Source: Maribacter ulvicola
Lineage (GTDB): Bacteria > Bacteroidota > Bacteroidia > Flavobacteriales > Flavobacteriaceae
DNA: 64,000 nucleotides
Assembly: GCF_900155985.1 (NCBI RefSeq)
Contig: NZ_FTMA01000010.1
Location: 62,001 to 126,000, forward strand
Direction of reading: 5' to 3'
Made by a program: the position numbers and the translations under genes. Of the stretch, positions 5,688 through 49,277 are shown piece after piece. Each line of letters begins with the position of its first letter. Position 1 is the first letter of the stretch. The notes beneath the pieces were generated by a model. The model searched no databases. It was given only the letters and a program-made list of their open reading frames with translations, and was not told the DNA's origin.

Positions 5688-5689
5688 AA

Positions 5690-6877
5690 TTAATGTGCGT
5701 GCTCTGCTTCCCCTTTTTTCATTTCTGCGTTAAGGTAATACGCATTATTATATGCGAATTGTGTTTTATTATCAATGCTATCAGTAAATTGAACCGAGAT
5801 CCATTGACTATCTTTAGAACCTAATAAAACTTCAATTGGCTTAAAACTCCAATCGTTATTTCCTTTTACTACAGAAAATACATAAAACCTATCGCCTTCT
5901 TTAATAATAGCACTTTCTGGTAATGCTTTTGCTTCATTATTTTCCACTTGTATTTTACCTTTTATATACATTCCTGGAATTAAGTTGCCTTTTTTATTCT
6001 CTATTTCTGCGTGAACGTGAACTGCTTTAGGGGTATCTTCAAAGGTTTTACCAACAGAATAGATTTCAGCGGTAAGTTCTGTATCTGGTATTGATTGTAC
6101 TATAAAATTTACTTTTTGACCTTTCTGTACTTTATAAACATCTTTTTCAAAGACCATTAAATCTGCGTGTACGTGATGTGTGTTCACTATTTCAAATAAT
6201 TCGGTTTGGGGTTCTACATATTGGCCTGTTTTAACTTCAACCTTTTGCACAAAGCCCTCTATTGGGCTGCGCAATGCAATACGTTGTGCTATGGTACCGT
6301 TACGAACTGAAACTGTATTAATATTCAATAATTGCAATTGTGCTTCTAAACCATTTACCATTGCTTTTGACACTTGATATTCTGCTTCTACCTTTTGAAA
6401 ATTAGCACCGGAACCTACACCTGCTTCGTATAACTTTTGTTGTCGTTCATAATTCTTTTTCAAAAAATTACTATTGCTATAAGCGTTTAAGTAATTGGTT
6501 TGTGCTTGTATAATATTTGGATGCGATAGATAAGCGACTACCTGACCTTTATTGACTTTATCACCTTCAATAACTTCAATTGAAACAACATTAGCACCAA
6601 TAACGGTAGTTATTGCCGCTTCGTTTTGTGGCGGCACTTCTAACGTTCCATTTGCTTCTACATAACCACTCATATTGCGCAATGTCAACGTATCTATTTT
6701 CATTTTTAACGCATCAAATTGTTGCTGAGAAAGCATTACCTCTTCACTTTCATTCTGTGTTTCATTAATTTCTGTTTTCTGTTCTTTATTATGAGAATGA
6801 TTATCCTTGTTTCCGCAAGCTGATACAAAAGTGACCAACACCATTACGGTAAGAATTTTATATATATTATTTTTCAT
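5690..6877 (-). CDS. HlyD/CzcB-family periplasmic adaptor of RND metal efflux (lipoprotein)
   Basis: A 395-residue membrane fusion protein linking the RND pump to the outer-membrane channel. The signal peptide ends in a lipobox (FVSAC, Cys near 21), followed by a His-containing stretch (DNHSHNKEQ). A split biotinyl-lipoyl domain is seen as VVSIEVIEGDKVNKGQVVAYL and, after an alpha-helical hairpin (~residues 115-185), as LRSPIEGFVQKVEVKTGQYV. The beta-barrel domain follows. The C-terminus ends EAEHAH, again possibly metal-binding. The gene starts 4 bases after the RND stop and ends 2 bases before the Fur-family start, so all three are surely cotranscribed. Paralogue of the adaptor at 43306-44448. 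Confidence 0.93.
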   Translation of the reverse strand: MKNNIYKILTVMVLVTFVSACGNKDNHSHNKEQKTEINETQNESEEVMLSQQQFDALKMKIDTLTLRNMSGYVEANGTLEVPPQNEAAITTVIGANVVSIEVIEGDKVNKGQVVAYLSHPNIIQAQTNYLNAYSNSNFLKKNYERQQKLYEAGVGSGANFQKVEAEYQVSKAMVNGLEAQLQLLNINTVSVRNGTIAQRIALRSPIEGFVQKVEVKTGQYVEPQTELFEIVNTHHVHADLMVFEKDVYKVQKGQKVNFIVQSIPDTELTAEIYSVGKTFEDTPKAVHVHAEIENKKGNLIPGMYIKGKIQVENNEAKALPESAIIKEGDRFYVFSVVKGNNDWSFKPIEVLLGSKDSQWISVQFTDSIDNKTQFAYNNAYYLNAEMKKGEAEHAH

Positions 6878-6881
6878 TGTT

Positions 6882-9800
6882 TTATTGATTAAAATATTGT
6901 AATTGAAATGTGCTTTCTAAATAATTTACTAATGCTGTTTGTGCATCCAATTGAGATTGAATGGCTTCTTTTATCAACTGCGTAAATGCAGTATAATCTA
7001 TTTCACCTTCTTTGTATGCCAACAATGCGCCTGTTTTTTGTTCTTTTGTTAATGGTAAAACTTGTTCTTTGTAGAACTCCCAAGATGTTTTCCATTTCCT
7101 ATAATTTTCTTTAGCCTGAACGAACCTTGATTGTACTTCCTGTCTTTTGAACGCTTTATTGGTTTCTGCTTTTTGTTTATCAATTCTGGCGCTTTTAATT
7201 TGTGCCTTGTTAGCACCTGATAAAAACGGAATGGAAACTCCTGCTTGATAGGTGTAAAACCCTGAATTGCCATTTACTTTTTGTAAACCACCTTGAAGAT
7301 TAAACTTTGGCAAATTATCTGCTTTTGCAGCTTTGTATTTGAATTCAGCTTCATTTACCATATTCTGTGATATACTGTACAATGGGTGGACTTCAACATT
7401 AAACGTTTTCATATCTATATCTACGGTTGCATCAAATTCATTTGAAACCGTATAAATAGCATCAGAAACCAACCATAAATTGAATTGCTGTATGGCAATT
7501 AAGTAATCACTATAGGCTTGGGTCTTTTTATTCTGAATTTGAAAAGCTTGATTTTTAGCAGCCGAGTATTCTAACTTGGAAATAGCTTCTACTTCATAAT
7601 TTATAGTTACCGCTTGTTCAAATTTGGAATAAATGGAATCTAGTTCTTTATATAAATCATAGTTCCTTTTCATTTGATAACACTTAGACCAAGCCTTTTT
7701 TACTTCCAATTCTAATTCTAATTCCGAAAGTTGAAACGCTTTCTGTGCCAATTGAATACGTTGTTCTTGTAACTTCTTTTTAGAACCTATACCAAATACA
7801 TCAATATTAGATTGACTCATACCAATGGTGGTATAAATGCCACTACCATTATCAATTTCTTCACCACCTGTAAAAACCTGTGTTGTTCCAAAGTCATAGA
7901 CAGTCGCTTTTAATTGTTCTTGTTTCGTAATTTCCAATTGCTGTTGTTTGAGTATAGGATAATTACTTTTTGAGAGTTTTATAGCTTCCTGTAATGAAAT
8001 TTCGGGAATGGTATCGTTTATCTCTTGTGCATTACTTTGTGTTGTAAAACCGAATAGCAAAAGAAATACTACTGTTGCCGTAACCAACTTTTTATTCGGT
8101 TTAAAACTAAATGATTTGTTTTCTACCCAATGGTATAAAATAGGTAATACAAATAATGTTAGCAAAGTAGATGTTAACAGCCCCCCAATCACTACAGTTG
8201 CCAAAGGTCGTTGCACTTCTGCACCTGCTGATGATGAAATAGCCATTGGTAAAAAACCTAATACATCTGTAAAAGCGGTTAGCATAATAGGTCTAATTCT
8301 GCGTTTAGTGCCATCTATTATTCTATCTTTTAAATTGGTTACCCCTTCGTCTTTTAATTCATTTAGTCCGCTTATCATTACCAACCCATTAAGAACCGCT
8401 ACACCAAACAACACAATAAAACCAACACCTGCCGAAATACTAAATGGCATATCACGCAACCACAAGGCCACTACACCCCCAATGGTTGCCATTGGGATAG
8501 CTATATAAATCATTAAGGTTTGTGGTAAAGATTTTAATGCAAAGTATATAAGAACAAATATGAGCAGCAATGCAATAGGCACAACAGTTTGTAGACGGTT
8601 GCTGGCACGCTCTAAATTCTCGAATGCACCGCCATAGCGAATAAAATAACCCGAAGGTAACTCCAGTTGTGCATCTAATTTTGATTTAATTTCTGCAACC
8701 AATGATTTTACATCACGCCCCCTAACATTGACACCTACATAGGTTCTTCTGTTGGTATTGTCTCTACTAATTTGCATAGGACCTGCTTTGTAGCTTACCT
8801 CTGCAATTTCACGTAAGGGAATTTGAGCACCTGAAGGTAAATTGATATATAGATTTTGAAGATCTGAAATATCCTTTCGGTTTTGGGCATTTAAACGCAC
8901 TACAAGATCAAAGCGTTTCTCTCCTTCAAAAATGACCCCTGCCGTACCCCCTGCAAATGCAGCTTGTACGGTTCTGTTTAGCGCATTTATTTGAAGTCCA
9001 TATTGTGACAGTTTATTTCTATTGTAATTAATGGTCATTTGTGGCAAACCTGTGGTGGCTTCTGCTTTCATATCGCCAATGCCTTCTGTACCTGCTATAA
9101 TTTTAGATATTTCTTCAGCTTTTTGAGATAGAATGTCAATATCTTCACCATAGAGTTTTATGGCTATATCTTCACGTACACCTTCAAGCAACTCATTAAA
9201 ACGCATTTCAATAGGCTGGGTAAATTCATAATTAACGCCAGGAACCATTTCAACCGCTTCTTTCATTGCCTCTATCAATTCATCTTTTGTCTCTGCCGTA
9301 GCCCATTCACTTTTAGGTTTAAGAATCACAAATACATCGGCTATATCCATTGGCATAGGGTCCGTTGGAATTTCGGCAACACCAATACGACTCACAATTT
9401 TATCGACCTCTGGAAATTTAGCTTTTACTATTTGCTCTATTTTAGTAGTAGTTTCAATAGTTTCTGTAAGTGAGCTACCCGGTTTTAAGATGGCATGAAA
9501 TGCAATATCACCTTCATCTAATTGCGGAATGAACTCACCACCCATTCGTGAAAACATTAATACCGTTATCCCAAACAGCACAATTGCAATACCAATTACC
9601 CACTTTCCTTTTTGTAATGCGTTTACCAATAAGGGTTCATATCTTTCTTCACACCAATTCACCAATTTATCTCCATAGGATTTTTTATCGTTCTTTGGTG
9701 CCCTTAAGAATAAAGCTGACATCATTGGCACATAGGTTAAGCAAAGTACCATGGCACCAATCATGGCAAAAATAAAAGTCAAGGCCATTGGCTTAAACAT

Positions 9801-11216
9801 CTTTCCTTCAATACCTTCTAAAGCCAAAATGGGTAGAAAAACGATAAGGATTATTAACTGACCAAAAAAAGCAGCGTTCATCATCTTTTTTGAAGCATTA
9901 GAAGTTACTTTATCCCTTTCCTTGGACGTAAGCTGTTTTCTTTTCAAAACTTGCGACATAATAAGAAAGACAGTGCTTTCTACAATAATTACAGCACCAT
10001 CTACAATGATTCCGAAATCTATAGCGCCTAAACTCATTAAGTTAACCCATACATCAAAAACATTCATTAAAATAAAAGCGAATAATAAGGATAATGGAAT
10101 AGTAGAAGCTACTATTAACCCTCCGCGCCAGTTGCCTAACAAAAAGACCAATACAAAGATGACGATCAATGCACCTTCAATAAGATTGGTGGTTACTGTA
10201 GAGGTCGTTTCCCCAATTAACTTGCTTCGATCTAATAATGGCTCAATAATAACACCTTCTGGTAATGACTTTTCAATTTGGGTCATTCGCTCTTTTACGT
10301 TTGCAATAACATCATTGGAATTTGCTCCTTTTAACATCATTACCAAACCACCTACAACTTCACCTTCTCCATCTTGAGTTAATGCACCATAACGAATTGC
10401 CGAACCGAATTGTACCGTAGCAATATCTCCAATAGTTACGGGAACGTTATTAAGATTTTTGACTGTGATTTTCTTAATATCCTCTAAACTTCGTGCCAAA
10501 CCTTCACCACGAATAAAATTGGCTTGATGGTTTTTTTCAATATATGCGCCACCTGTATTCTGATTATTAGCCTCCAGTGCATTAAACACATCTGTAATGG
10601 TAAGGCCAATAGCGTTTAAATCGTTAGGATCAACAGCTACTTCATATTGTTTTATTTTACCGCCAATAGCATTCACTTCTACCACACCCGGAACCATTGC
10701 CATTTGGCGTTGTACAATCCAATCTTGCATTGTACGTAAATCTGCAATGCTATATATAGCTTTAAACTCTGGCGCTACTTTTAAGGTGTATTGGTATATC
10801 TCCCCTAAACCTGAAGAGATAGGTCCCATTGCAGGCTCGCCAAATCCACTTGGAATTTGCTCTTTTACCTCGTTTAGCTTTTCCGCTACTAATTGTCGAG
10901 GTAGATAGGTACCCATATCATCGTCAAATACTATAGTTACGACAGATAAACCAAAACGGGAAATTGATCTTATTTCCTTCACATTGGGAAGATTACTCAT
11001 TGCTACCTCAATAGGATAGGTTATAATCTGCTCAATATCTTCAGTACCTAAATTGGGGGATTGTGTTATAACCTGTACTTGGTTATTGGTAATGTCCGGA
11101 ACAGCATCTATTGGTACTTTGGTCATACTCCAAATACCTGCTCCAATTATGGTAAGCGTAAGCAAACCAATAATAAATTTGTTATTGATTGAAAAATCAA
11201 TGATTTTATTAATCAT
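6882..11216 (-). CDS. CzcA/CusA-type RND metal efflux pump fused to a TolC-like outer-membrane factor
   Basis: At 1444 residues this is ~400 longer than a normal HME-RND pump (about 1040). Residues 1 to ~1040 are a full RND protein: N-terminal membrane helix, periplasmic porter domains with PNLGTEDIEQIITYPIE, and a TM4 motif DFGIIVDGAVIIVE (400-413) typical of divalent-cation (Co/Zn/Cd) pumps rather than the Cu/Ag group. Residues ~1065-1444 are an outer-membrane efflux protein (PF02321) with long helical segments, equivalent to CzcC. Between them, residues ~1045-1064 form a hydrophobic stretch after lysines, ending SNAQ/E, which looks like an internal signal peptide with a signal peptidase I site. 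The pump is therefore likely made as one chain and perhaps cleaved. The genes for the adaptor and regulator follow directly. A close relative lies at 44459-48796. Confidence 0.92.
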   Translation of the reverse strand: MINKIIDFSINNKFIIGLLTLTIIGAGIWSMTKVPIDAVPDITNNQVQVITQSPNLGTEDIEQIITYPIEVAMSNLPNVKEIRSISRFGLSVVTIVFDDDMGTYLPRQLVAEKLNEVKEQIPSGFGEPAMGPISSGLGEIYQYTLKVAPEFKAIYSIADLRTMQDWIVQRQMAMVPGVVEVNAIGGKIKQYEVAVDPNDLNAIGLTITDVFNALEANNQNTGGAYIEKNHQANFIRGEGLARSLEDIKKITVKNLNNVPVTIGDIATVQFGSAIRYGALTQDGEGEVVGGLVMMLKGANSNDVIANVKERMTQIEKSLPEGVIIEPLLDRSKLIGETTSTVTTNLIEGALIVIFVLVFLLGNWRGGLIVASTIPLSLLFAFILMNVFDVWVNLMSLGAIDFGIIVDGAVIIVESTVFLIMSQVLKRKQLTSKERDKVTSNASKKMMNAAFFGQLIILIVFLPILALEGIEGKMFKPMALTFIFAMIGAMVLCLTYVPMMSALFLRAPKNDKKSYGDKLVNWCEERYEPLLVNALQKGKWVIGIAIVLFGITVLMFSRMGGEFIPQLDEGDIAFHAILKPGSSLTETIETTTKIEQIVKAKFPEVDKIVSRIGVAEIPTDPMPMDIADVFVILKPKSEWATAETKDELIEAMKEAVEMVPGVNYEFTQPIEMRFNELLEGVREDIAIKLYGEDIDILSQKAEEISKIIAGTEGIGDMKAEATTGLPQMTINYNRNKLSQYGLQINALNRTVQAAFAGGTAGVIFEGEKRFDLVVRLNAQNRKDISDLQNLYINLPSGAQIPLREIAEVSYKAGPMQISRDNTNRRTYVGVNVRGRDVKSLVAEIKSKLDAQLELPSGYFIRYGGAFENLERASNRLQTVVPIALLLIFVLIYFALKSLPQTLMIYIAIPMATIGGVVALWLRDMPFSISAGVGFIVLFGVAVLNGLVMISGLNELKDEGVTNLKDRIIDGTKRRIRPIMLTAFTDVLGFLPMAISSSAGAEVQRPLATVVIGGLLTSTLLTLFVLPILYHWVENKSFSFKPNKKLVTATVVFLLLFGFTTQSNAQEINDTIPEISLQEAIKLSKSNYPILKQQQLEITKQEQLKATVYDFGTTQVFTGGEEIDNGSGIYTTIGMSQSNIDVFGIGSKKKLQEQRIQLAQKAFQLSELELELEVKKAWSKCYQMKRNYDLYKELDSIYSKFEQAVTINYEVEAISKLEYSAAKNQAFQIQNKKTQAYSDYLIAIQQFNLWLVSDAIYTVSNEFDATVDIDMKTFNVEVHPLYSISQNMVNEAEFKYKAAKADNLPKFNLQGGLQKVNGNSGFYTYQAGVSIPFLSGANKAQIKSARIDKQKAETNKAFKRQEVQSRFVQAKENYRKWKTSWEFYKEQVLPLTKEQKTGALLAYKEGEIDYTAFTQLIKEAIQSQLDAQTALVNYLESTFQLQYFNQ

Positions 11217-34880: not shown

Positions 34881-35345
34881 ATGGCAAATTTCAGTGTAAA
34901 AGTTAATGGAGAAATTAAAGATATAGATGTAGACCCCTCTACACCAATGCTTTGGGTATTACGAGATCATTTAAAATTAGTAGGCACAAAATTTGGCTGC
35001 GGTATTGCACAATGTGGCGCATGTACGGTTCACTTAGGTGATAATGCAGTACGTTCATGCCAGCTGCCGATCTCTGCCGTTGGTGAGCAATCTATTACTA
35101 CCATTGAAGGACTTTCAGAAAACGGAGATCACCCAGTACAAAAGGCGTGGTTAGAAGAAGATGTGTACCAGTGTGGGTATTGCCAAGCCGGACAAATAAT
35201 GAACGCCAGTGCATTTTTAAAACGAAATCCTAATCCTACGGACACTGAAATTGAAGATGCTATGAACGGTAATATCTGTCGTTGTGGCACGTATACGCGA
35301 ATAAAGAAAGCAATTAAAAATGCTTCAAGTATTTCTAACGCGTAA
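34881..35345 (+). CDS. Molybdenum hydroxylase [2Fe-2S] subunit (IorA-like)
   Basis: A 154-residue ferredoxin-like subunit of the xanthine dehydrogenase family. The first cluster ligands are in [16 protein letters not shown] with the fourth Cys in VRSCQLP. The second cluster is CGYCQAGQ and CRCGTY in the helical C-terminal domain. There is no signal peptide. It passes electrons from the molybdopterin subunit encoded 46 bases downstream. The pairing matches isoquinoline 1-oxidoreductase alpha/beta type enzymes, which lack a separate FAD subunit. Physiological substrate unknown. Confidence 0.95.
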
Positions 35346-35391
35346 TTATAACCCCAAAATTTGGGGATTTTAACCTTCAAAAAAGATACAA

Positions 35392-37596
35392 ATGACACTC
35401 ATTAAAACAACATATAATAGACGTTCTTTTTTAAAAAGTAGTACACTTGCAGGTGGCGGTATGATTTTAGGATTCAGCTGGTTGGCTTCTTGCAAACCCA
35501 GCCCTGAACAAGTTAGCAACATACCAAAAGAATGGTTTGACATCAATGCTTTTCTAAAAATTGGTGATAATGGTACGGTAACGATCATGTCTCCAAACCC
35601 AGAAATTGGACAGAATGTAAAAACGTCTATGCCCATGATCGTTGCCGATGAACTTGGTGTAGATTGGAAAAATGTAATTGTAGAACAGGCTCCTTTAAAT
35701 ACAGATATTTTTCAAAGACAATTAGCAGGTGGTAGCCAATCTATCCGTGCTGGTTGGTCAGGACTAAGAATGGCCGGTGCTACTGCCAGACATATGTTAG
35801 TGGCTGCAGCTGCCGATACTTGGCAGGTTAATGCTTCTGAAATTACCGTGGACAACGGAGTTATTAGTCACGCAACATCTAACAATTCTGCCGGTTTCGG
35901 TGACATGGCTTCAAAAGCTGCAACAATGTCTATTCCCGAAGAGGTTCAACTGAAAGAAACCGCTGATTTTAGTATTATAGGGACAGATAAAAGAAACGTG
36001 GACGGACCAAATATTGTTACCGGTAAACCTTTGTTCGGTATAGATATTCAAGAGGAAGGAATGATGATCGCCATGATCGTGCATCCGCCTGCTTTTGGAT
36101 TGACCTATAAATCTATGAATGCCAATGCTATAAAATCTATGCCCGGTATTAAAGATGTTTTTCCTATTGATGTTTATAAAGACGATACAGAAAGGCAATG
36201 GTCAGATGCTGGTTCTATTGACAAATTAGTTGCCATTGTTGGCGAAAGTACTTGGCAATGTATGCAAGCTAAAAAGGCTTTAAACGTGGAATGGGAAGAA
36301 ACATCCGCTTTAGAAAGTACCAAAGGGCATGATGAAGCGTTGACAAAATTAATGAATACATCTTCTAAAGAACCTGCGCGTAAAGATGGTAATGTGGCCA
36401 GTGCATTTAAAAAAGCCAATCAAATAATAGAACGTACGTATAGTGCTCCATTTTTGGCACACAATACCATGGAACCTATGAACTTTTATGCAGATGTAAC
36501 CGCTGAAAGAGCTTTGTTCAACGGACCTATACAGACTCCGGAGTTTTTAGAAAAAACCTTGGCATCCAGATTAGGTATGCCAGTGGAGAAAATTGATATA
36601 AAAATGAGCCGTATGGGTGGCGGATTTGGTCGTCGTCTCTATGGTACTTTTGGCGTAGAAGCTGCGGTGATTTCGCAACATATGCAAGCTCCCATAAAGT
36701 TGGTGTACACTCGTGAAGATGACATGACCCAAGGCACCTACCGCCCTACCTATAAAGTAAAGTATAAGGCGGGGCTAGATAAAGAAGGAAACTTAATTGC
36801 CTGGCATGTAAAAGGTGCAGGATCCAATGATGATCTACTTTTTGAAAATAGATTTCCGGCAGGAGCAGTAGATAATTATTTGGCAGAAAAATTTAGTTTA
36901 GAAACCAATGTTACTACAGGGGCATGGCGCGCGCCACGTTCTAACTTTGTTGCTGGTGCCGAACAAGCATTTTTAGATGAAGTTGCCGAAGCAGCAGGGA
37001 AAGACCCAATTGAATTTAGATTGGAATTGTTTGATAGGGCGATAAAAAACCCGGTTGGCAATCCTGAAAAAAATGACTATGATCCAGTGCGGTATGCGGG
37101 CGTTTTAAAATTAGTAAGAGATAAAGCAGATTGGGACGGCAGTCAGAAAAACGGAACTGCAAGAGGAGTTTCTGCATACTACTGCCATAACTCTTATGTG
37201 GCACAAGTTCTGGACCTGAACAATGATTCAAAATCACCTAAGGTAGATAAGGTATGGTGTGCCGTAGATTGCGGAATAGTCATTAACCCTATGGCTGCAA
37301 AAAATCAAATTGAAGGCGGTATCATTGACGGTATAGGTCACGCTACTTACAGTGAAATGACATTTAAAGACGGGCAGCCACAACACAAAAATTTTGATAC
37401 CTATCGCTTAATAAGACATAAAGAAGCACCTAAGAAAATAGAAACTTATTTTGTAGATAACGGTATTGACCCAACCGGATTAGGAGAACCATCTTTACCA
37501 CCAATAATCGGTGCCCTTGCAAATGCCCTCTATAAATCTACAGGTCAAAGACATTATAAACAACCGTTCATTACAGAAAAACCTGTAATAGGTTAA
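35392..37596 (+). CDS. Molybdopterin-binding aldehyde/isoquinoline oxidoreductase large subunit (IorB-like), Tat-exported
   Basis: A 734-residue catalytic subunit. A Tat signal (RRSFLKSSTLAGG) followed by a lipobox-like ASC puts the complex in the periplasm, carrying the signal-less FeS subunit with it. The molybdopterin-contact motif is GGGFGRRLYGTFGVEAA, and the catalytic Glu lies in GLGEPSLPP near the C-terminus. IorB-type proteins oxidise aldehydes or N-heterocycles. A cytochrome c subunit that often completes such complexes is not encoded here. The operon ends at a bidirectional terminator shared with the DUF6268 gene. Confidence 0.93.
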   Translation: MTLIKTTYNRRSFLKSSTLAGGGMILGFSWLASCKPSPEQVSNIPKEWFDINAFLKIGDNGTVTIMSPNPEIGQNVKTSMPMIVADELGVDWKNVIVEQAPLNTDIFQRQLAGGSQSIRAGWSGLRMAGATARHMLVAAAADTWQVNASEITVDNGVISHATSNNSAGFGDMASKAATMSIPEEVQLKETADFSIIGTDKRNVDGPNIVTGKPLFGIDIQEEGMMIAMIVHPPAFGLTYKSMNANAIKSMPGIKDVFPIDVYKDDTERQWSDAGSIDKLVAIVGESTWQCMQAKKALNVEWEETSALESTKGHDEALTKLMNTSSKEPARKDGNVASAFKKANQIIERTYSAPFLAHNTMEPMNFYADVTAERALFNGPIQTPEFLEKTLASRLGMPVEKIDIKMSRMGGGFGRRLYGTFGVEAAVISQHMQAPIKLVYTREDDMTQGTYRPTYKVKYKAGLDKEGNLIAWHVKGAGSNDDLLFENRFPAGAVDNYLAEKFSLETNVTTGAWRAPRSNFVAGAEQAFLDEVAEAAGKDPIEFRLELFDRAIKNPVGNPEKNDYDPVRYAGVLKLVRDKADWDGSQKNGTARGVSAYYCHNSYVAQVLDLNNDSKSPKVDKVWCAVDCGIVINPMAAKNQIEGGIIDGIGHATYSEMTFKDGQPQHKNFDTYRLIRHKEAPKKIETYFVDNGIDPTGLGEPSLPPIIGALANALYKSTGQRHYKQPFITEKPVIG

Positions 37597-40257: not shown

Positions 40258-41601
40258 CTAGTCCATTACAAACTTAAACCCAGCAGTGATGATGCCGGAA
40301 CTAAAAGTAGTGTTCCTATCATATTTATAGTATTTCAGATCAATACTTTTTAGACCAAATTTCCACATATGCATTTTTGTGAAAATATCTGTGTACGATA
40401 CTCCCATTCCAAATTGATTTGCCGAATATTTAGATAGGTCATAATCAGAAGTATAAAAATTTTCCGTAGACAATGCTTCTTCAAACTTGTAAAAATAATC
40501 TGCTTTGCTTTGCATATAATATCTGTAAGATGGGTAAACCGTAAACCTATTGGATAATTTAATAGGCAGTTCTACACTTGCGGTGTGGGAGTTTATTCCC
40601 CAATCATCAAAATAATATCGGTAGTACGTACGCAAAACAAAAGTCTCGTTTACATACCAATTTAATCTGCCGCCTGCAGCTACCTTAAAACGGGTATTGG
40701 GTAATTGCTCTATAGCATCTGCTAATTGAAAATTCTGAACAAACGAGTCCGCAACATCTGCAAAATATATCCTCTGAAATGGTGTGCTCAGCAACCCTTC
40801 TTGCTGCACAAAATCCAAAGCCAAAGACCCCTGAAGGTTCTTACTAAGAATTTGAGAAAACCCCAACCCTACCGAATATGAATTTCTTGTTTCATCTGTA
40901 AACTTCTCAAAAGTAGGAGTATAGTCGCTATTACCTGTTATGGTTTTGTTGGAAAAAAATCCGTTCTCCAGACCATTTGCACCACTTGCAAAAGGGCGTA
41001 ATTCGGTAGGATAAATAGCTGTCCAAGTGTCTAAAAACATATTTGCATTTATACGAAGTTCTGTATTCTTTTCATTGAACAATTTTGTTAATCCACCGCC
41101 AAAACCAAAAGAAAAATAATCATATTCCGATGATAGCGATAATTTACCTGAGACAATGGTATTTCTATCTTCTGAACTATGACTATATGAGCCTGTCAAA
41201 TTTGTCCATACATCTGATCGAGATGCCCCTGAGCTTGCTACAAAAGGATCCGCTGGTTCATCACCATCAAATGGATCAACATTACTAGAGGATGCAGAAG
41301 TATACGCAGAAACCCCGGCATCTATAGTTAGAACATCGTCATCGCTCAGCGGTACAGACACCACGATAGTACCCGTTACATCAGTTAACTCTTCACTACC
41401 CAAACCTCCACTTACCGCCGCATTATCTCCATCCTGTGCATAATAACTGCTCAAAATATCTATCTCCGTGTTTTCTAGCACCCTTTTCTTATATGAGGTA
41501 GATGCATCTTGGTTTTGCTGAGCATAACCTATACTACAAAGGAAAAGCGCCGCAATTAATAGCCGTGATTTATAACTGTTCATTTGTTTCATCTTTTTCA
41601 T
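40258..41601 (-). CDS. DUF3570 outer-membrane beta-barrel protein
   Basis: A 447-residue protein with a signal peptide (cleavage near GYAQQ, residue ~27) and a long beta-strand-rich barrel ending with an aromatic/hydrophobic C-terminus (TAGFKFVMD). It matches DUF3570 (PF12094). Residues 123-127 read SSGAS (41235-41221). SGA followed by S or T is the core of sites where ApbE attaches FMN, and the flavin transferase gene is in the same operon; flavinylation here is inference. The gene overlaps the DUF4266 stop by one base, showing tight coupling. Last gene of the thioredoxin/ApbE/DUF4266/DUF3570 cassette. Function not established. Confidence 0.86.
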   Translation of the reverse strand: MKKMKQMNSYKSRLLIAALFLCSIGYAQQNQDASTSYKKRVLENTEIDILSSYYAQDGDNAAVSGGLGSEELTDVTGTIVVSVPLSDDDVLTIDAGVSAYTSASSSNVDPFDGDEPADPFVASSGASRSDVWTNLTGSYSHSSEDRNTIVSGKLSLSSEYDYFSFGFGGGLTKLFNEKNTELRINANMFLDTWTAIYPTELRPFASGANGLENGFFSNKTITGNSDYTPTFEKFTDETRNSYSVGLGFSQILSKNLQGSLALDFVQQEGLLSTPFQRIYFADVADSFVQNFQLADAIEQLPNTRFKVAAGGRLNWYVNETFVLRTYYRYYFDDWGINSHTASVELPIKLSNRFTVYPSYRYYMQSKADYFYKFEEALSTENFYTSDYDLSKYSANQFGMGVSYTDIFTKMHMWKFGLKSIDLKYYKYDRNTTFSSGIITAGFKFVMD

Positions 41602-41813
41602 TAATTACAACCGCAACCACCACCTGTTCTACCACCATTAGCGCCAACTGCCGCCTCTCTATAAGAATGCATGGTACTAACGTTTCTATCGCATTGTTTA
41701 TCCTGCAATGTCATATCCGGGTCGTTAATATTCATTTTATCATACTCCTTCAACACTGTACAGCTACTACCAAAAGTTGCCAATAAAGCCACTATTAAAA
41801 CTTTCTTTATCAT
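41601..41813 (-). CDS. DUF4266 small lipoprotein with GGGCGCN C-terminus
   Basis: A 70-residue lipoprotein: signal MIKKVLIVALLATFGSSC with Cys18 as the lipid site. The short mature part contains DPDMTLQDKQC and ends GGRTGGGCGCN, the hallmark of DUF4266 (PF14086). The two C-terminal cysteines in a Gly-rich tail could bind a metal or a cofactor, or be a substrate of the neighbouring thioredoxin. Its start overlaps the apbE stop by 4 bases and its stop overlaps the DUF3570 start, so the three are translationally coupled. Function unknown. Confidence 0.87.
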   Translation of the reverse strand: MIKKVLIVALLATFGSSCTVLKEYDKMNINDPDMTLQDKQCDRNVSTMHSYREAAVGANGGRTGGGCGCN

Positions 41814-42790
41814 GATTTTGATATTTCAATATTTTTTGATGTAAAGATGTTGCCTTTATCGTCTATGATAATACACGCTATATTCGGCAACTGTTCTATT
41901 CGGTTCAGTCCAACTTCTTTTCCCATGACAAATACCGATGTTGCCAAGGCATCTGCCAATTCTGCTTTGGGAGCAAAAACGGTAACGCTAATAATACCTG
42001 TTACAGGGTAACCACTACGAGGATCAATGATATGGGAAAACCTTGTATCCTTGAAGGTAACGTACTTTTCATAGTTTCCTGAAGTAACCACTGCCCCATT
42101 GGTTATTGGTAACAAAGCAAAGACCTTATTCTTATCCATAGGGTTGGTAATGGCCACCTGCCACTCTTTACCATTAGGTTGTTTTCCCCAGGTATTCATG
42201 TCACCAGATGCATTTATGATGCCCGCTACTACGCCTTTAGATTTTAACAACTCTTTTGCCCTATCTGCTGCATAGCCCTTGCCAATGGCTCCAAAACCAA
42301 TTTTCATACCTACTAACTTCAGGAAGACCGTACGGTTTTCTTTATCTAATATGATATTTTGATAACCTACTTTAGAAACAGATGTTTTTATCGTAGCTTC
42401 TGTTGGCATTGCAGTCATACTACCATCAAACTTCCAGATTTTATCCATAGATGCATAACTGATATCAAAAGCACCGTCTGTTAGCTTAGAAATGCCAATT
42501 CCCCTTTGTATCAAATTGAACAATTCTGCATTAACTTTTACAGGTTTCACTCCTGCATTTCTATTAATTTCCGATGTCTGTGAATTTAAATCCCAAGAAG
42601 AAATCAACTTCTCTATTCTTGCTATTTCATTGATAGCCAAACTAATATACGAATTTCCTTCAACAGGATCTTTAGCTACGACAGTAATATCAAAACGGCT
42701 ACCCATTAATTTAATGGTGCGCTTATATGGTTGTTGGGCAAATAGTTGCCCAACAACACATAGCATTAGTATGAGAAGTAGTTTCTTCAA
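41810..42790 (-). CDS. apbE: FAD:protein FMN transferase (ApbE)
   Basis: A 326-residue secreted enzyme (signal ending LFAQQ). It transfers FMN from FAD to a Thr/Ser on target proteins outside the cytoplasm and needs Mg2+. Family signatures seen: LMGSRFDITV at the N-terminus, FGAIGKGYAADRA, NASGDMNTWG, HIIDPRSGYPV and ADALATSVFVMG. It starts one base after the thioredoxin stop. The usual targets (NqrB/C, RnfG, FMN-binding domain proteins) are not encoded in the window, so the target is either elsewhere or in this cassette. Confidence 0.96.
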   Translation of the reverse strand: MKKLLLILMLCVVGQLFAQQPYKRTIKLMGSRFDITVVAKDPVEGNSYISLAINEIARIEKLISSWDLNSQTSEINRNAGVKPVKVNAELFNLIQRGIGISKLTDGAFDISYASMDKIWKFDGSMTAMPTEATIKTSVSKVGYQNIILDKENRTVFLKLVGMKIGFGAIGKGYAADRAKELLKSKGVVAGIINASGDMNTWGKQPNGKEWQVAITNPMDKNKVFALLPITNGAVVTSGNYEKYVTFKDTRFSHIIDPRSGYPVTGIISVTVFAPKAELADALATSVFVMGKEVGLNRIEQLPNIACIIIDDKGNIFTSKNIEISKS

Positions 42791-42791
42791 G

Positions 42792-43232
42792 CTATTTTAT
42801 GAAAGCATTTAATTCAGCAATGTATTCTTTTGGTGAACGTTTTTTATAACTGGTTGCTCCATATACTTTTCCATCCGCATTCATCACTACAACAAATGGG
42901 AATATACCTTGCCTATTGTACTTTTCTGCCAAGGCTTTATTTTTATTCAATTGCTCTTTTGGTAACGCATTCCTCTTTCTTCTTGGAAAATCTGCTTGCA
43001 GCATTACGTAATGCTTTTCAGCATATTCTTTAAACTCATTGGTAGACCACACGGCTCTATCTAACTTAATACATGGCGCACACCAATCTGATCCTTGAAA
43101 CACTATTATTAATGGCTTATTTTCTGAAGTAGCAATAGAACTGGCTTCCGTAAAATCTGTATGCCATTCTTGGGCCGTTGCAGAACCCAAGCCTAGCACA
43201 GAAAGCAACATAAACACTATAAATTTCTTCAT
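42792..43232 (-). CDS. Periplasmic thioredoxin-family protein
   Basis: A 146-residue protein with signal peptide (ending ATAQE) and a thioredoxin-like fold (PF13899). The active site reads GSDWCAPCIKL, a CxxC in the expected place, and the cis-Pro region is GIFPFVVVM. First gene of the ApbE cassette, 73 bases downstream of the HlyD-type adaptor of the second metal operon. It could keep the cysteines of the DUF4266 lipoprotein reduced or help insert a cofactor; this is inference from the neighbourhood. Confidence 0.88.
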   Translation of the reverse strand: MKKFIVFMLLSVLGLGSATAQEWHTDFTEASSIATSENKPLIIVFQGSDWCAPCIKLDRAVWSTNEFKEYAEKHYVMLQADFPRRKRNALPKEQLNKNKALAEKYNRQGIFPFVVVMNADGKVYGATSYKKRSPKEYIAELNAFIK

Positions 43233-43305: not shown

Positions 43306-44448
43306 CTACTCTCCTATCAGGCTAAACGCACCTTTGGTTAAAAATTGTGTTTCTTGTTTAAAAGTCGATGAATTACTGACCCAACTCTTATTTTCATAAC
43401 TACCCAAGATGTTGACAGGTATTTGCTTAAAATAATAAATGTCTCCTTTTCTCTCCTCTAATAGGAGCACAAACGACTCATTATTTACCTCTACAATAGC
43501 ATCTGAAGGTAACGAAATCTGTGTTGATTTTTCTATAATGATATTTGCTTCAACAAACATACCGGTAAGAAAATTAGCCTGTTCTTCATTCTCTATATGT
43601 GCATGGACCTTTATCGTCCTATTTTGACCTATTGATGTACCTACCAAATAGACCTCTGCCCTATAGGTTTCTTTAGAAGCTTCTGGAATTCTAAATTCCA
43701 CTACCTGTCCTTTTTCTATTTTCATGATATCTTTTTCAAAAACCGAAAGTTCTAGGTGTATATGATCATTATTAATAATCTCCATGATTGAGGTAGCGGG
43801 AGAAACATACGTACCTTTTGAAATATTTACACTTGTTATACTACCGCCAATTGGGGCATAAATAGTGGCTACTGAATTTATATTACCCTTTTCTACTTGA
43901 TCGGGTGATATGTGTAGCATTCTCAATTGTTTTTTGAGTCCGTTATATCTTGCTATCCCAGTATTGTAATCGCTCTCTGCTTTTAAAAAGCTTTTCTGAG
44001 AACTAATGTTTTCCGCTACCATTGTTTGCTGACGCTCGTATTCTGCTTTTAAATAACTTAACTGCCCATTAACCTCCATATACTGTTGTTGTAAGGTTAC
44101 AAACTCCGGATTTTCTATTGTTACCAATAATTGCCCTTTACGGACCTTATCACCGACCAATAAAGGGGTAGTCTTAATATAACCGCCCATGGTAGCACTC
44201 ACTACCGCCCTATTTTCCGGTGGCACATCTATCATGCCCGCTGTTGTTACTATTACCGGAAAATCACTTTCTGCCATTTTACCCAAACTCATTTTACTTT
44301 GGTTGAATTGTTGTTGAGTAATTTTAATACGGTCATCTGTATTAGCTTCTAATGCGGTGCTATCATTCGTTTTGTTTTCCTGATTTCCACAACTTAAAAT
44401 AATTGCGAAAATGAAAATCGTTGTTATGTTGTATATATATTTTTGCAT
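43306..44448 (-). CDS. HlyD/CzcB-family periplasmic adaptor, second locus (lipoprotein)
   Basis: A 380-residue membrane fusion protein with a lipobox (IILSC, Cys ~20). The two lipoyl halves are seen in IKTTPLLVGDKVRKGQLLVTI and IYAPIGGSITSVNISKGTYV, separated by a helical hairpin (~110-170). It has no His-rich ends, unlike the paralogue at 5690-6877. It starts 10 bases after the RND-OMF stop. It joins the RND pump to the outer-membrane channel. The next genes on the strand are the thioredoxin/ApbE cassette. Confidence 0.92.
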   Translation of the reverse strand: MQKYIYNITTIFIFAIILSCGNQENKTNDSTALEANTDDRIKITQQQFNQSKMSLGKMAESDFPVIVTTAGMIDVPPENRAVVSATMGGYIKTTPLLVGDKVRKGQLLVTIENPEFVTLQQQYMEVNGQLSYLKAEYERQQTMVAENISSQKSFLKAESDYNTGIARYNGLKKQLRMLHISPDQVEKGNINSVATIYAPIGGSITSVNISKGTYVSPATSIMEIINNDHIHLELSVFEKDIMKIEKGQVVEFRIPEASKETYRAEVYLVGTSIGQNRTIKVHAHIENEEQANFLTGMFVEANIIIEKSTQISLPSDAIVEVNNESFVLLLEERKGDIYYFKQIPVNILGSYENKSWVSNSSTFKQETQFLTKGAFSLIGE

Positions 44449-44458
44449 GATGCCCTAT

Positions 44459-47400
44459 TTATAATGTTATGAAATTAATGTCTGCAGCAGTTTCGTTATA
44501 CGCTTTTAGCTGATCTAGATATCCCAATTTTATATCATATGCGCTTTCTAAACTTTGTAGGTATTGATAGAAATCTATCTCCCCATTTTTAAAGCTAATG
44601 TTGGCGGTCTTCAATATTTCGTCTGCCAGTTCTGCGCCTTCGTTCTCATAATAATTTAATGAGTTTTGAATTTGTACAATTTGTTGTGTTAAAATATATT
44701 GTTTGGACTTTATTTGAATTTTATATGCGACCGACTCCGTTACCGCTCTTTCTTTTGCAATTTTAGATGCCTTAATCCTAGAAGTATTTCCACTGAAGAA
44801 TAGCGGAATCTTGAGTCCTAATTGATAACCAAAAAGAGTGTTGTTCAATTCTGAGTTTGATCCCTGAAAATAGGCTAAACTTATATCTGGTAGCAGCTGC
44901 TGTTTTTCTAAGTTGCTTTCTGCAGCCAGCAATTGCCTGTTATTTTCATAATAGACCAACTCAGGACTAGCGTCTAAGTTTACATCTTGTATGACAATTT
45001 TCAAGTTCATTTCTTCGGCAAGAACCAAACTATCTTCTACCTGAATTAATTGCACCAAATTAGCATATATAGTTGCTACATGTTGCATGGCTTGCTGATA
45101 GTCTAAACTGATTTGTCGTTGTTTAGAGGCCGCCGTAATTTTCTCTAAGTAATTGGTTTCTCCTAATTCAAATTTTCTAGCTGCTACCTTAGAAAAATTG
45201 GCATATAAACTATCTAACCGTTTATATACCCTAACCTTCTCTCTTGCAATTTGATATTCATAATACCTCCTTGTTACTTCTTTGGTTAACGCCTTACGCT
45301 GAATATCATATTCACTTTGTGCCAAACCAGCCTGTAGGTTGTTCACCTTTTTTTCAGAAAAATAAGTTGTTGGAAAACGAAAATCTTGTTGAACCCCAAA
45401 TACCTTTAATGGCACATTGTTGATGGCAAGATTATTTTCATCGTATTCATAATACACATGCGTTTTATCAAAACTAAAAGCATTAGAAATTAGTGCTTTA
45501 GATTCATTAACTTTCAACTGACCGGCTTTTAAACCCATATTATTTTCAATGGCCAAGGAAATTAATACATCAAGATTTTGACTTTTTGATTCTTGTGCCG
45601 AAGTCCCAATAGATATAAGCAATGCTATAAAAACAATACCATTTTGTAACGTTGTTTTTGGTATTGGCTTTCTTGAATTGTCATGACTTGCAAACATAGA
45701 ATATAGCACTGGTAAAACTACCAAAGTCAATATAGTTGCCGTAAAGAGACCACCTATAACCACCGTTGCCAAAGGTCGCTGCACTTCTGCACCGGCATTG
45801 GTTGATATTGCCATGGGCAAGAAACCAAGTGCTGCGGCAGATGCTGTTAACAACACTGCCCGCAACCGATCTTTTGCACCTTGTTTTATTAAGTCATCTA
45901 AACTATGAAAAGAATTCTTTTTCAACTCCTTAAAATGTTCTATCAGAACAATACCATTTAATACAGCTATACCAAAAAGTGCTATAAAACCTACTCCCGC
46001 AGAAATACTGAACGGTAAGTCCCGTACCCATAAAAGAAAAACTCCCCCAACAGCCGCTAACGGAATAGCGGAATAGATCATAAGAGCTTCTTTTACCGAT
46101 TTAAATGCAAAATATAGCAACACAAAAATGAGCGCTAATGCTATAGGTACCGCTATCAATAGTCGGTCTCGGGCACTTTGTAGATTTTCAAACTGACCGC
46201 CATAGGTGATGGTATATCCTGCTGGTAATTTTACCTTTTCATTGATTAATCCCTGAATATCGTCTACAACTGATTGCAAATCGCGATTACGGACATTTAC
46301 GCCTACTACCGTTCTTCTTTGGGTATCATCTCTAGAGATTTTTGCCGCACCTTTTTTATACGTAATATCTGCCAATTCACTTAACGGGATTTTTCCTCCG
46401 TTGGGCAAATCAACATACAGGTTTTTAAGATCATCAATATCTTGTCGTTTTGCTTTATCTAAACGCACCACTACATCAAATCGCTTTTCACCTTCAAAAA
46501 CATTACCGGCAGTTTTACCGGCAAAACCCATAGAAACCATATCATTTAGATCCTGAATATTTAAACCGAAGCGGGCAATTTTTGCACGATCATAATCAAC
46601 ACTCATTTCGGGCAAACCGGCTATTTTTTCTACACTAATATCTGCAGCTCCTTCAACATCTTTTATCAACGCCCCAATCTCATTGCCTTTTTTAGCCAAT
46701 ACATCTAAATCCGGACCAAAAATCTTTATAGCTATATCTGCTCTAACGCCTGTAATTAATTCATTAAAACGCATTTCTATGGGTTGTGTAAATTCTACCT
46801 CCATCCCCGGAATAATGGCTAGTGCCTCTTTAAATTTATCGGCTAACTCGTCTTTAGATTTTGCACTTGTCCACTCCCCTTTGGGTGCCAATTTAATAAT
46901 GACATCACTTTCTTCCATTGACATGGGATCCGTGGGCACTTCGGCAGCACCTATTCTAGTGACCACTTGCTGAACCTCTGGAAAATTATGGAGTAAAATT
47001 TTCTCGATCTCGGTAGTAATCTCAACAGTTTTACTTAATGAAGTTCCTGTTTTTAAAACGGGCTGTATTACAAAATCGCCTTCATCTAACGTTGGTACAA
47101 ACTCACTACCCATAGCTGCGTATAAAAATATTGCCAACATCAGTAGCATAGATGCAACCCCTAAAACTATTTTTTTACTTTGCAATGCCCAATTTATAAT
47201 AGGCTCATATTTCTTGACCAACCATTTCATTAAACGAACAGCTATATTTTTGTCCAATTCCTTTGATGGTTTTAGAAAAACTGATGCCGCTACGGGAACA
47301 TAGGTAAAACATAAAATCATGGCCCCAACTAACGCAAAACTGAAGGTCAATGCCATAGGCTTGAACATTTTACCTTCTACACCACTTAATGAAAGAATAG

Positions 47401-48796
47401 GAATAAAAACAATTAATATGATCAACTGCCCAAAAATGGCAGAATTCATCATTTTAGATGCACCGTTAAACGTAATCTTATCTTTTAAATGTTGTTGTTC
47501 TACTTTGGGCAAACCATTTATTTCGTGCTGTTTTCGCGTAATTTCAAAAGCTATAAACTCTACAATAATGACGGCGCCGTCTATGATAATACCAAAATCA
47601 ATAGCTCCCAAACTCATTAAATTGGCATCTACGCCAAATATGTACATAAGTGACAAGGCAAAAAGAAGACACAAGGGTATTACAGATCCCACTACCAAAC
47701 CTGACCTAAAATTACCTAACAACAATACCACTACAAAAATGACAATTAGGCATCCTAAAATTAAGTTCTCACTTACCGTAAAGGTGGTTTTTGCAATAAG
47801 TTCGCTACGTTCTAAAAACGGATTAATATAAACACCCTTGGGCAACGAAGTGGAAATTTCGGCAATACGTTCTTTAACCGCTTCTATTACTTTTTTAGAG
47901 TTTGCATCTTTCAACATCATCACTTGCCCTAAGACTTTCTCGCCTTCACCATTACCTGTAATAGCACCAAAACGGACAGCACTACCAAAGTCAACAGTTG
48001 CTATATCTTTAATATAAATGGGTAGGCCGTCTTTATTAGAAATAACAATATTCTTGATATCCTCAAGAGAAGAGACCAACCCATCTCCACGAATAAAAAA
48101 AGCTTGGTTTACCTTTTCTATATACCCACCTCCCGATACACTGTTATTAGTTTCCAAAGCCTTAAAAACATCACTTGTAGTGATATTCATAGCATTTAGC
48201 TTTTGGGTATTTATGGCCACTTCGTATTGTTTTAGAAATCCGCCCCAAGTGTTCACCTCAACTACACCTGGTATACCGGACAATTGTCTTTTTACGATCC
48301 AATCTTGTATGGTTCTCAATTCCGTAGTGGAATACTCATTTTTATATGCTGGTTTCACCTCCAATATGTATTGATAGATTTCTCCTAGTCCGGTGGTAAT
48401 AGGTCCCATTTGTGGAGTACCAAAACCTGCGGGTATCTTCTCTGATGCAGAAGCTATTTTCTCGGCAATAAGTTGCCTTGGCAAATAGGTGCCTAAATCA
48501 TCATCAAAAACGATAGTAACCACAGACAAACCAAACTTAGATACCGAACGTATTTCTTTGACACCGGGTAAATTCGCCATTTCTAACTCTACCGGATATG
48601 TGATAAATTGCTCCATATCTAGGGTTGATAAATTACGTGATGTAGTAATTACCTGAACCTGGTTATTGGTTACATCTGGCACAGCACCAATAGGTATTTG
48701 TGAAAGTGCAAATAAACCGTACCCAATAATAAATACGGTAAATAGAAGAACAATAAGCTTATTCTTTAAGCTGAAATTAATGATATTTGATAGCAT
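44459..48796 (-). CDS. Second CzcA/CusA-type RND pump fused to a TolC-like outer-membrane factor
   Basis: A 1445-residue paralogue of the protein at 6882-11216. The RND part (to ~1045) has the same TM4 motif with DFGIIIDGAVIIVEF, placing it in the divalent-cation group. The last ~377 residues are an outer-membrane efflux protein (helical stretches such as RREYEYQ-type segments and YYENNRQLLAAESNLEKQQ). The junction, residues ~1050-1068, has a basic residue, a hydrophobic core (FIALLISI) and GTSAQ/E, a signal-peptidase-I-like site, as in the first copy. The RND part would pump metal, the OMF part would carry it through the outer membrane. The metal may differ from that of the first locus because no regulator or P-type ATPase gene is attached. 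Confidence 0.91.
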   Translation of the reverse strand: MLSNIINFSLKNKLIVLLFTVFIIGYGLFALSQIPIGAVPDVTNNQVQVITTSRNLSTLDMEQFITYPVELEMANLPGVKEIRSVSKFGLSVVTIVFDDDLGTYLPRQLIAEKIASASEKIPAGFGTPQMGPITTGLGEIYQYILEVKPAYKNEYSTTELRTIQDWIVKRQLSGIPGVVEVNTWGGFLKQYEVAINTQKLNAMNITTSDVFKALETNNSVSGGGYIEKVNQAFFIRGDGLVSSLEDIKNIVISNKDGLPIYIKDIATVDFGSAVRFGAITGNGEGEKVLGQVMMLKDANSKKVIEAVKERIAEISTSLPKGVYINPFLERSELIAKTTFTVSENLILGCLIVIFVVVLLLGNFRSGLVVGSVIPLCLLFALSLMYIFGVDANLMSLGAIDFGIIIDGAVIIVEFIAFEITRKQHEINGLPKVEQQHLKDKITFNGASKMMNSAIFGQLIILIVFIPILSLSGVEGKMFKPMALTFSFALVGAMILCFTYVPVAASVFLKPSKELDKNIAVRLMKWLVKKYEPIINWALQSKKIVLGVASMLLMLAIFLYAAMGSEFVPTLDEGDFVIQPVLKTGTSLSKTVEITTEIEKILLHNFPEVQQVVTRIGAAEVPTDPMSMEESDVIIKLAPKGEWTSAKSKDELADKFKEALAIIPGMEVEFTQPIEMRFNELITGVRADIAIKIFGPDLDVLAKKGNEIGALIKDVEGAADISVEKIAGLPEMSVDYDRAKIARFGLNIQDLNDMVSMGFAGKTAGNVFEGEKRFDVVVRLDKAKRQDIDDLKNLYVDLPNGGKIPLSELADITYKKGAAKISRDDTQRRTVVGVNVRNRDLQSVVDDIQGLINEKVKLPAGYTITYGGQFENLQSARDRLLIAVPIALALIFVLLYFAFKSVKEALMIYSAIPLAAVGGVFLLWVRDLPFSISAGVGFIALFGIAVLNGIVLIEHFKELKKNSFHSLDDLIKQGAKDRLRAVLLTASAAALGFLPMAISTNAGAEVQRPLATVVIGGLFTATILTLVVLPVLYSMFASHDNSRKPIPKTTLQNGIVFIALLISIGTSAQESKSQNLDVLISLAIENNMGLKAGQLKVNESKALISNAFSFDKTHVYYEYDENNLAINNVPLKVFGVQQDFRFPTTYFSEKKVNNLQAGLAQSEYDIQRKALTKEVTRRYYEYQIAREKVRVYKRLDSLYANFSKVAARKFELGETNYLEKITAASKQRQISLDYQQAMQHVATIYANLVQLIQVEDSLVLAEEMNLKIVIQDVNLDASPELVYYENNRQLLAAESNLEKQQLLPDISLAYFQGSNSELNNTLFGYQLGLKIPLFFSGNTSRIKASKIAKERAVTESVAYKIQIKSKQYILTQQIVQIQNSLNYYENEGAELADEILKTANISFKNGEIDFYQYLQSLESAYDIKLGYLDQLKAYNETAADINFITL

Positions 48797-48875: not shown

Positions 48876-49277
48876 TTATGAAACGCGCGGCGGCTGTAAA
48901 ATGCCTTGTGAGTGTAAGGATGAAGAAGGTGCTTGGTAATAAAAATTACCGTCTGAATTCTCTAAAATTTGTACTTCGTTTAATTCTGATTTGTAAGTAT
49001 TCAAGAATACATCGGCAATAGAAATATGTGATGCACCGCTATGATTAAAAGGGAGTTTTTCGTGATCTTTCTTTTCCTCTTGATGATCGCGTTGATGATC
49101 TGCTTTCAATTCACCATAATGTTTAGAAAGAAAAACTATTACATTATCACCATATTGCATATTATGAAATTGGGCGTGCTCGATCAATTCATCTAACTGA
49201 ACAATATCATCATAATGCACACCTAAGCTTTGTAGCATGATGATCGATGATAACAGTATGGAAAACAGTTTGTTCAC
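48876..49277 (-). CDS. Small secreted His/Asp-rich protein heading the second RND operon
   Basis: A 133-residue protein with a signal peptide (MNKLFSILLSSIIMLQSLG). The mature part is rich in His, Asp, Glu and Lys (for example HYGELKADHQRDHQEEKKDH), which suggests metal binding. It ends ILQPPRVS. The protein at 11307-11618 ends IWQPPQV and has the same place ahead of an RND-OMF gene, though the middles differ. The start lies 79 bases before the RND-OMF gene. No family is firmly recognised. Confidence 0.75.
   Translation of the reverse strand: MNKLFSILLSSIIMLQSLGVHYDDIVQLDELIEHAQFHNMQYGDNVIVFLSKHYGELKADHQRDHQEEKKDHEKLPFNHSGASHISIADVFLNTYKSELNEVQILENSDGNFYYQAPSSSLHSQGILQPPRVS

Follow-up and report, generated by a model that had tools for sequence, protein, structure and literature searches.

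What is made, and what is supplied with electrons, by a tight run of four minus-strand genes in the flavobacterium Maribacter ulvicola that encode a thioredoxin, the flavin adenine dinucleotide (FAD):protein flavin mononucleotide (FMN) transferase ApbE, a DUF4266 lipoprotein and a DUF3570 protein, in that order? This cassette occupies positions 43232-40258 of the window, by which we mean the whole 64,000-nucleotide stretch that was analysed (NCBI RefSeq assembly GCF_900155985.1, contig NZ_FTMA01000010.1, positions 62,001 to 126,000 of the forward strand). A first-pass annotation, made from the sequence alone, had proposed that it assembles a flavin-bearing outer-membrane protein, with the thioredoxin keeping the cysteines of the lipoprotein ready. 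According to the accessible text of Meheust et al. (eLife 2021, PMC8238504), ApbE flavinylates a Chlorobium DUF3570 protein; DUF3570 is thus a proven ApbE substrate. Here we set out the evidence for a fuller reading, to which we give an even chance: the cassette both makes and feeds an outer-membrane flavin redox protein, with reducing equivalents running from DsbD through the thioredoxin and the terminal cysteines of DUF4266 to FMN on DUF3570.

RESULTS

Four closely spaced genes form a conserved cassette

All four genes were confirmed, and each product gave a Pfam match over the cut-off (Thioredoxin_7, ApbE, DUF4266 and DUF3570). The genes, and the parts of their products that the argument uses, are:

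42792..43232, minus strand: Thioredoxin_7-type periplasmic thioredoxin, 146 aa (Pfam PF13899, 3.4e-15); WCAPC at 43085-43071
41810..42790, minus strand: ApbE, FAD:protein FMN transferase, 326 aa, TTG start (Pfam PF02424, 3.3e-83)
41601..41813, minus strand: DUF4266 lipoprotein, 70 aa (Pfam PF14086, 9.7e-17)
Parts of DUF4266, minus strand: lipobox Cys18 at 41762-41760, tail R52-N70 at 41660-41604, CGC at 41615-41607 (alignment A4)
40258..41601, minus strand: DUF3570, predicted outer-membrane barrel, 447 aa (Pfam PF12094, 1.9e-44; AlphaFold2 model; barrel matches)
41290..41301, minus strand: candidate FMN motif 1, TSAS, DUF3570 residues 101-104 (motif scan; A103 and S104 invariant in alignment A3)
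41221..41232, minus strand: candidate FMN motif 2, SGAS, DUF3570 residues 124-127 (motif scan)

Unless another sample is named, the counts below refer to 121 loci, which are not independent of one another: 80 were fetched via DUF3570 (the best 80 of 547 matches to our DUF3570 alignment), 40 were hand-picked from 85 places found via DUF4266 (31 outside and 9 inside the family f17), and the last is the window. The statistics come nearly all from Bacteroidota, other phyla being represented by a single Vibrio locus.

The spacing reported in the first-pass annotation was confirmed. One base separates the thioredoxin stop from the TTG start of apbE, which is followed 24 bases later by an in-frame ATG, and apbE overlaps the DUF4266 gene by 4 bases; of 91 loci that allowed placement of both genes, 60 show this same overlap. 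The 1-base overlap between the DUF4266 and DUF3570 genes hinges on the choice of start, being found only with the first of three nearby DUF3570 ATGs; in five Maribacter loci (L073, L074, L076, L077 and L089) open reading frame (ORF) calling places a gap of 22-25 bases here. The signal sequences at the N-termini of all four products, judged by eye and accompanied in DUF4266 by a lipobox Cys, were likewise as first described, as was the WCAPC of the thioredoxin. The ratio of nonsynonymous to synonymous substitution rates (dN/dS) was 0.03-0.13 in 11 of 24 gene pairs, all with a dS of at least 1.0, and was undefined in the other 13. Because the same gene order recurs across many Flavobacteriaceae and beyond, and because these ratios are low, the cassette is more than a chance arrangement; judging by the pattern of selection, it is real, conserved and functional.

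DUF4266 and DUF3570 are near-inseparable

Among 247 Bacteroidota genomes, DUF4266 was found in 69 and DUF3570 in 71. Both were present in 69 genomes, DUF3570 stood alone in two (G213 and G225) and DUF4266 stood alone in none. A hidden Markov model (HMM) detected DUF4266 in 79 of the 80 DUF3570-fetched loci, and the remaining one (L140) has it in a frame that lacks a called start. All 40 DUF4266-fetched loci contain DUF4266 by construction; the pairing claim stands because the 80 DUF3570-fetched loci and the genome search carry it on their own. ApbE lies within 3 kb in 75 of the 80, in 33 of the 40 and in the window; neighbourhoods mostly lacking apbE, which would have told against the first-pass annotation, are thus not what the sample shows. 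The corresponding numbers are 73 and 35 for thioredoxin, counting any thioredoxin match within 3 kb, and 1 and 8 for a Rieske protein within 5 kb.

Searched against plasmids with tblastn, DUF4266 gave no match and DUF3570 gave two Hymenobacter and three Vibrio records. A Vibrio plasmid (L179 6243-11033) carries an otherwise similar cluster in which the DUF4266 protein is 154 aa long; no lipobox is evident in it and no signal sequence in the ApbE, and the gene after the cluster resembles DsbD by eye.

The DUF4266 lipoprotein ends in two invariant cysteines

DUF4266 is a strikingly uniform protein. Of its 121 matches, 116 match the lipobox and 89 have a mature length of 53, and the distance from the conserved Arg/Lys-Glu to the C-terminus is 18 or 19 residues in every one. 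The only invariant cysteines in 63 aligned sequences are the lipid-bearing Cys and two at the very end, which in the window form the CGC of the C-terminal GGGCGCN that had already been pointed out; alignment A4 used 62 loci. When DUF4266 was modelled alone with AlphaFold2 (63 closely related sequences), the predicted local distance difference test score (pLDDT) was 56, falling below 50 in the tail, and we use this model only as the absence of a confident fold. The idea that DUF4266 is the precursor of a modified peptide was set aside: the annotated recurring neighbours include no obvious modifying enzyme besides ApbE, although no dedicated search was made.

DUF3570 is predicted to be a barrel with flavin motifs at its outer end

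The AlphaFold2 model of DUF3570, built with 61 sequences, reached a pLDDT of 87.7 and a predicted template modelling score of 0.81. By our count, with barrel closure not checked on the coordinates, it has 16 main strands spanning residues 46-446, and it has the marks of an outer-membrane barrel, namely alternating lumen and lipid faces, an even strand number and a signal sequence, the last judged by eye. VIA-align superposed it on the polysaccharide secretin barrel 4y25 with a Z of 21.1 and a root mean square deviation of 3.4 over 255 residues. Since the fold searches with this model returned generic outer-membrane barrels only and no specific relative, we draw no functional homology from them. 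Taken with the published flavinylation of the Chlorobium protein, the model bears out the core of the first-pass annotation, in which ApbE would make DUF3570 an outer-membrane flavoprotein. The accompanying statement that the function of DUF3570 is not established still applies to its purpose and not to its flavinylation, already established according to the accessible text of PMC8238504.

Both candidate FMN motifs sit in or at the loop 103-129 of the model, one ending strand 3 and the other just preceding strand 4. With strands counted from a periplasmic N-terminus, this loop would face the outside together with the other long loops. Residues assigned to the lumen are more conserved than those assigned to the lipid face (2.55 vs 1.83 bits), and lumen conservation is highest in the extracellular third (3.22, vs 2.27 and 2.18; Spearman -0.51), where faces were assigned from how hydrophobic alternate positions of that alignment are, and depth from topology, rather than from coordinates. 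Lipid-facing residues follow the opposite trend. This pattern of conservation supports a predicted active site at the extracellular end of DUF3570.

At 106 loci DUF3570 has two matches to [ST][GS]A[ST] and no more. Motif 1 reads [ST]SAS at 101 of these and [ST]GAS at the other 5, and motif 2 is SGAS or TGAS at 92. As the sequences read, motif 1 thus differs in most sampled loci from the published [S/T]GA[S/T] form, to which motif 2 of the window conforms. At the remaining 15 loci the number of matches is 0, 1 or 3; of those without any, three (L050, L051 and L056) have YASAS and SPSS at the motif positions. Alignment A3, made for the DUF3570 model, comprises 60 of the 80 named loci, chosen by hand, with the starts of some rows extended upstream by the ORF caller. 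A family f17 genome has four DUF3570 ORFs within a single stretch (L071), some with additional flavinylation-like motifs.

Thioredoxin and ApbE are tied to each other and to the cassette

The WC..C pattern is present in all 102 cassette thioredoxins that could be placed. For the window thioredoxin, the best NCBIfam match is DsbH (1.5e-23, under its cut-off). The window ApbE is 80% identical to the ApbE of a second cassette in the same genome and 27% identical to the ApbE beside an FMN_bind (NQR-like) operon. Two natural thioredoxin-ApbE fusions were found (L124 7030-8532 and L144 8349-9716), and the two genes are therefore functionally tied. At three loci (L121, L132 and L143) a protein of 112-113 aa occupies the expected place of the thioredoxin, with a signal-like start in L121.

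DsbD and Rieske proteins as candidate sources of electrons

The second cassette (L054) encodes thioredoxin, a Rieske protein, ApbE, DUF4266, DUF3570 and DsbD. There are three DsbD_TM matches in the genome, on contigs 5, 2 and 9; one adjoins this cassette, and one other full-length DsbD is encoded on contig 2.

The four ligands of the Rieske protein are kept in all eight aligned members. A ninth Rieske-like protein (L050 5753-6211), with Ser for the second cluster Cys, lies beside a DUF3570 without the usual FMN motifs. Run against 149 genomes of the family, the Rieske alignment matched 46 places, 23 of them strongly (E <2e-43). Linkage to ApbE was scored for the 23 strong places: in 21 of them an ApbE match follows on the same strand less than 0.7 kb downstream, the exceptions being G353 and G304. 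When 21 Rieske loci were mapped (L186 and L190-L209), 11 contained DUF3570 and 10 contained neither DUF3570 nor a DUF4266 tail, the latter comprising three Rieske-thioredoxin-ApbE arrangements, six Rieske-ApbE pairs and one Rieske gene alone. The M. ulvicola genome itself has only Rieske and ApbE at a site shared with L042 and L151, where the flanking genes are 73-93% identical. From these remnant loci it follows that DUF4266 and DUF3570 come and go jointly, and that Rieske and ApbE can outlast them. One such Rieske-ApbE pair (L186 6528-8045; G000 contig 5, ~1768527-1770044) lies where relatives have the full five-gene cassette, and is either a remnant or a pair with a separate function. No paper joining Rieske, ApbE, thioredoxin and flavin was found in our literature search.

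Metal-related and other neighbours

Upstream of the cassette lie the genes of an RND efflux system:

43306..44448, minus strand: RND periplasmic adaptor of the CusB/CzcB type (RND_mfp over cut-off)
44459..48796, minus strand: CusA/CzcA-family RND pump fused to a C-terminal outer-membrane factor domain (OEP), 1445 aa (TIGR00914 over cut-off)

The adaptor gene is 73 bases upstream of the thioredoxin gene, and the two may possibly share one operon. The genome encodes five CusA/CzcA-family pumps over the cut-off, one adjoining the window cassette and one ~6 kb before the second cassette, just outside the fetched stretch and hence not in our pump counts. In 20 of the 121 loci a close relative of the window pump is encoded within 9 kb, vs a naive expectation of ~2.5% from the five copies in this genome; since many of these loci share ancestry, the binomial p value overstates the significance of the association. 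Two further loci outside this count (L045 and L118) have a weaker or partial RND match, the pump of L076 lacks the DFG motif and that of L098 is split in two ORFs. Pump and adaptor are upstream in Maribacter types and Echinicola; elsewhere two-component genes and the pump are downstream, and in others adaptor and pump are downstream on the opposite strand. These differing arrangements suggest repeated association with the cassette. Iron genes also recur: by tested representatives of gene clusters, VIT1 is near 9 loci and ferritin near 7 (all Aquimarina), and at 3 loci a ZIP gene and an iron-dependent repressor were recognised together, either through Pfam or by eye.

Elsewhere in the window, a second CusA/CzcA pump and a FUR-family regulator lie at 5274-11216 (minus strand), together with a 395 aa gene that we take to be the adaptor of this pump. 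A 133 aa protein without a Pfam family and with a His-containing stretch is encoded before the RND pump (48876-49277, minus strand), with similar neighbours in 13 loci. On the plus strand, positions 34881-37596 encode a protein of 734 aa, presumably of the molybdenum hydroxylase type, whose start is twin-arginine-like; a 154 aa gene precedes it, and several Maribacter loci have relatives close to the cassette. The downstream Mqo was considered as a part of the cassette and rejected, since it was found nearby in only 5 of the 121 loci, namely the window and four named Maribacter records. The gene names purM, prfA, glnA and pyrF are assigned by our own recognition and not from a database result.

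DISCUSSION

The reading that we favour brings these observations together as follows. ApbE would attach FMN to a Ser/Thr of the SGAS and probably of the TSAS of DUF3570, as extrapolated from the Chlorobium protein, and the barrel would open its FMN loop to the extracellular side. Reducing equivalents would pass from DsbD, encoded elsewhere in the genome, to the periplasmic thioredoxin, from there to the CGC of DUF4266, a lipoprotein that would work for DUF3570 alone as a flexible arm bearing two thiols, and finally to FMN, in an order and direction that we infer; the whole would serve reduction at the outer membrane. In some loci a Rieske protein may give or take single electrons. The acceptor would be the weakest step: a metal ion or metal complex is a tentative choice for acceptor or cargo, proposed because metal-efflux and iron genes recur near cassettes. 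We favour this reading because of the published flavinylation and gene set, the DUF4266/DUF3570 pairing, the barrel model, the conservation pattern, the DsbD beside the second cassette, the thioredoxin-ApbE fusions, the Rieske linkage and the likeness to the thiol oxidase Erv2. As for the proposal that the thioredoxin keeps the lipoprotein cysteines ready, this may be so, although a line of electron supply fits better with the DsbD of the second cassette, the two fusions and the Rieske partner. A bolder version, which we hold to be unlikely, would make DUF3570 and DUF4266 a heme-free outer-membrane conduit, in which the Gly-rich CGC tail reaches into the lumen from the periplasmic side, swings there as a dithiol arm and feeds two FMNs at the extracellular mouth, so that acceptors outside the cell are joined to a Rieske protein or to the thiol pool of thioredoxin and DsbD; the 18-19-residue tail, if extended, would be about as long as the barrel is high.

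Several observations weigh against electron supply from DsbD to an outward-facing flavin. With the flavin outside and the thiol donor in the periplasm, a bridge across the barrel is needed, and the FMN loop is a poorly modelled part of DUF3570 (block pLDDT 57-75). The TSAS of motif 1 departs from the published form at its second position. DsbD is missing from the window cluster, with no DsbD_TM match on contig 4, where the window lies. Twelve of the 121 loci have no thioredoxin within 3 kb, some of them on contigs that end nearby, and most cassettes have no Rieske gene (it is present in 9 of 121 loci). Rieske and ApbE also serve something else, to judge by the 10 mapped loci out of 21, among them one in this genome, that lack both DUF3570 and DUF4266. 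Finally, four Aquimarina cassettes (L130, L131, L134 and L147) have no ApbE of their own between thioredoxin and DUF4266. Relaxed selection as the cause of this loss was dropped, since these cassettes keep the FMN motifs and two ApbE are encoded elsewhere in each of the three genomes searched (L130, L134 and L147).

Other readings share parts of this evidence. The thiol proteins might act in maturation only, with DsbD and thioredoxin keeping the DUF4266 cysteines reduced or undoing wrong disulfides, DUF4266 helping DUF3570 to fold or insert, and the flavin drawing its electrons from elsewhere, for instance a Rieske protein or some diffusible donor. The strict tie of DUF4266 to DUF3570 and its lack of a confident fold alone would fit a dedicated chaperone or subunit, and some loci do have a Rieske partner; against this, two cysteines at the extreme end of a Gly-rich tail of fixed length suit a shuttle better than a folding aid, and the Rieske gene is confined to the few loci counted above. 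We regard a role in maturation only as improbable. It is likewise improbable, in our estimate, that the cassette is an accessory of the RND efflux pump, with a soft metal, Cu(I) for instance, bound by the CGC tail and reduced or sensed by the flavin. This would account for the excess of window-type pumps in several arrangements, for the pump near each of the two cassettes in this genome and for the VIT1, ferritin and ZIP genes near some loci, but about 5/6 of the loci have no such pump in their stretch, and the relatedness of the loci inflates the significance of the excess. Moreover, we take the pump motif DFGIIIDGAV to be that of a divalent-metal rather than a copper pump.

Electrons might also run the other way, the flavin taking them from envelope thiols and passing them to oxygen or another acceptor, so that the cassette would make disulfides. 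Erv2, an FAD thiol oxidase with a C-terminal CXC shuttle, pairs the two in just this direction (accessible text of PMC4019985); DsbD, in contrast, is described as a reductive system in the accessible text of PMC8238504, and the best NCBIfam match of the thioredoxin, though under its cut-off, is a disulfide reductase. We regard this direction as very improbable.

How does the cassette, read as an electron supply to DUF3570, compare with known systems? The accessible text of PMC8238504 describes clusters of ApbE, DUF3570, Thioredoxin_7 and DUF4266 with or without DsbD, counts 316 without it and suggests that the DUF4266 CXC may cycle. Judged by its gene content, the window cassette belongs to these DsbD-type flavinylation clusters and would fall among those without DsbD: it has all four families and the C-terminal CXC, and differs in lacking DsbD and in the TSAS of its first FMN motif. 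That paper was the one found when the literature was searched for DUF4266 or DUF3570. Its main text, supplements apart, makes no mention of Rieske, copper, efflux or RND, its accessible parts do not describe the barrel topology, and two later ApbE papers (PMC11334425 and PMC12052999) were not among the literature matches for DUF3570/DUF4266. As far as the literature was searched, the putative outward-facing redox site and the strict DUF4266/DUF3570 pairing with joint absence from remnant sites appear to be new, as do the Rieske subfamily, the thioredoxin-ApbE fusions and the RND association, parts of which the supplements may hold. With Erv2 (accessible text of PMC4019985) the cassette would share a terminal CXC as the electron carrier linking a flavin to its thiol partner, a likeness in working and not kinship, Erv2 being a eukaryotic FAD enzyme with the shuttle within the same protein. 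Like the FMN_bind flavoproteins of the NqrC/RnfG type, DUF3570 would have FMN placed on Ser/Thr by ApbE; it belongs to a different family, and the genome has a separate FMN_bind protein with its own ApbE on contig 16. Cytochrome conduits of the MtrCAB type use a barrel to carry electrons through the outer membrane. The cassette would use flavin and thiols instead of hemes, a comparison that is entirely inferred, heme motifs not having been searched for. If its flavins do face outward and are fed by the CGC lipoprotein, many Bacteroidota would possess a route for electrons through the outer membrane that is free of cytochromes and driven by the thiol pool.

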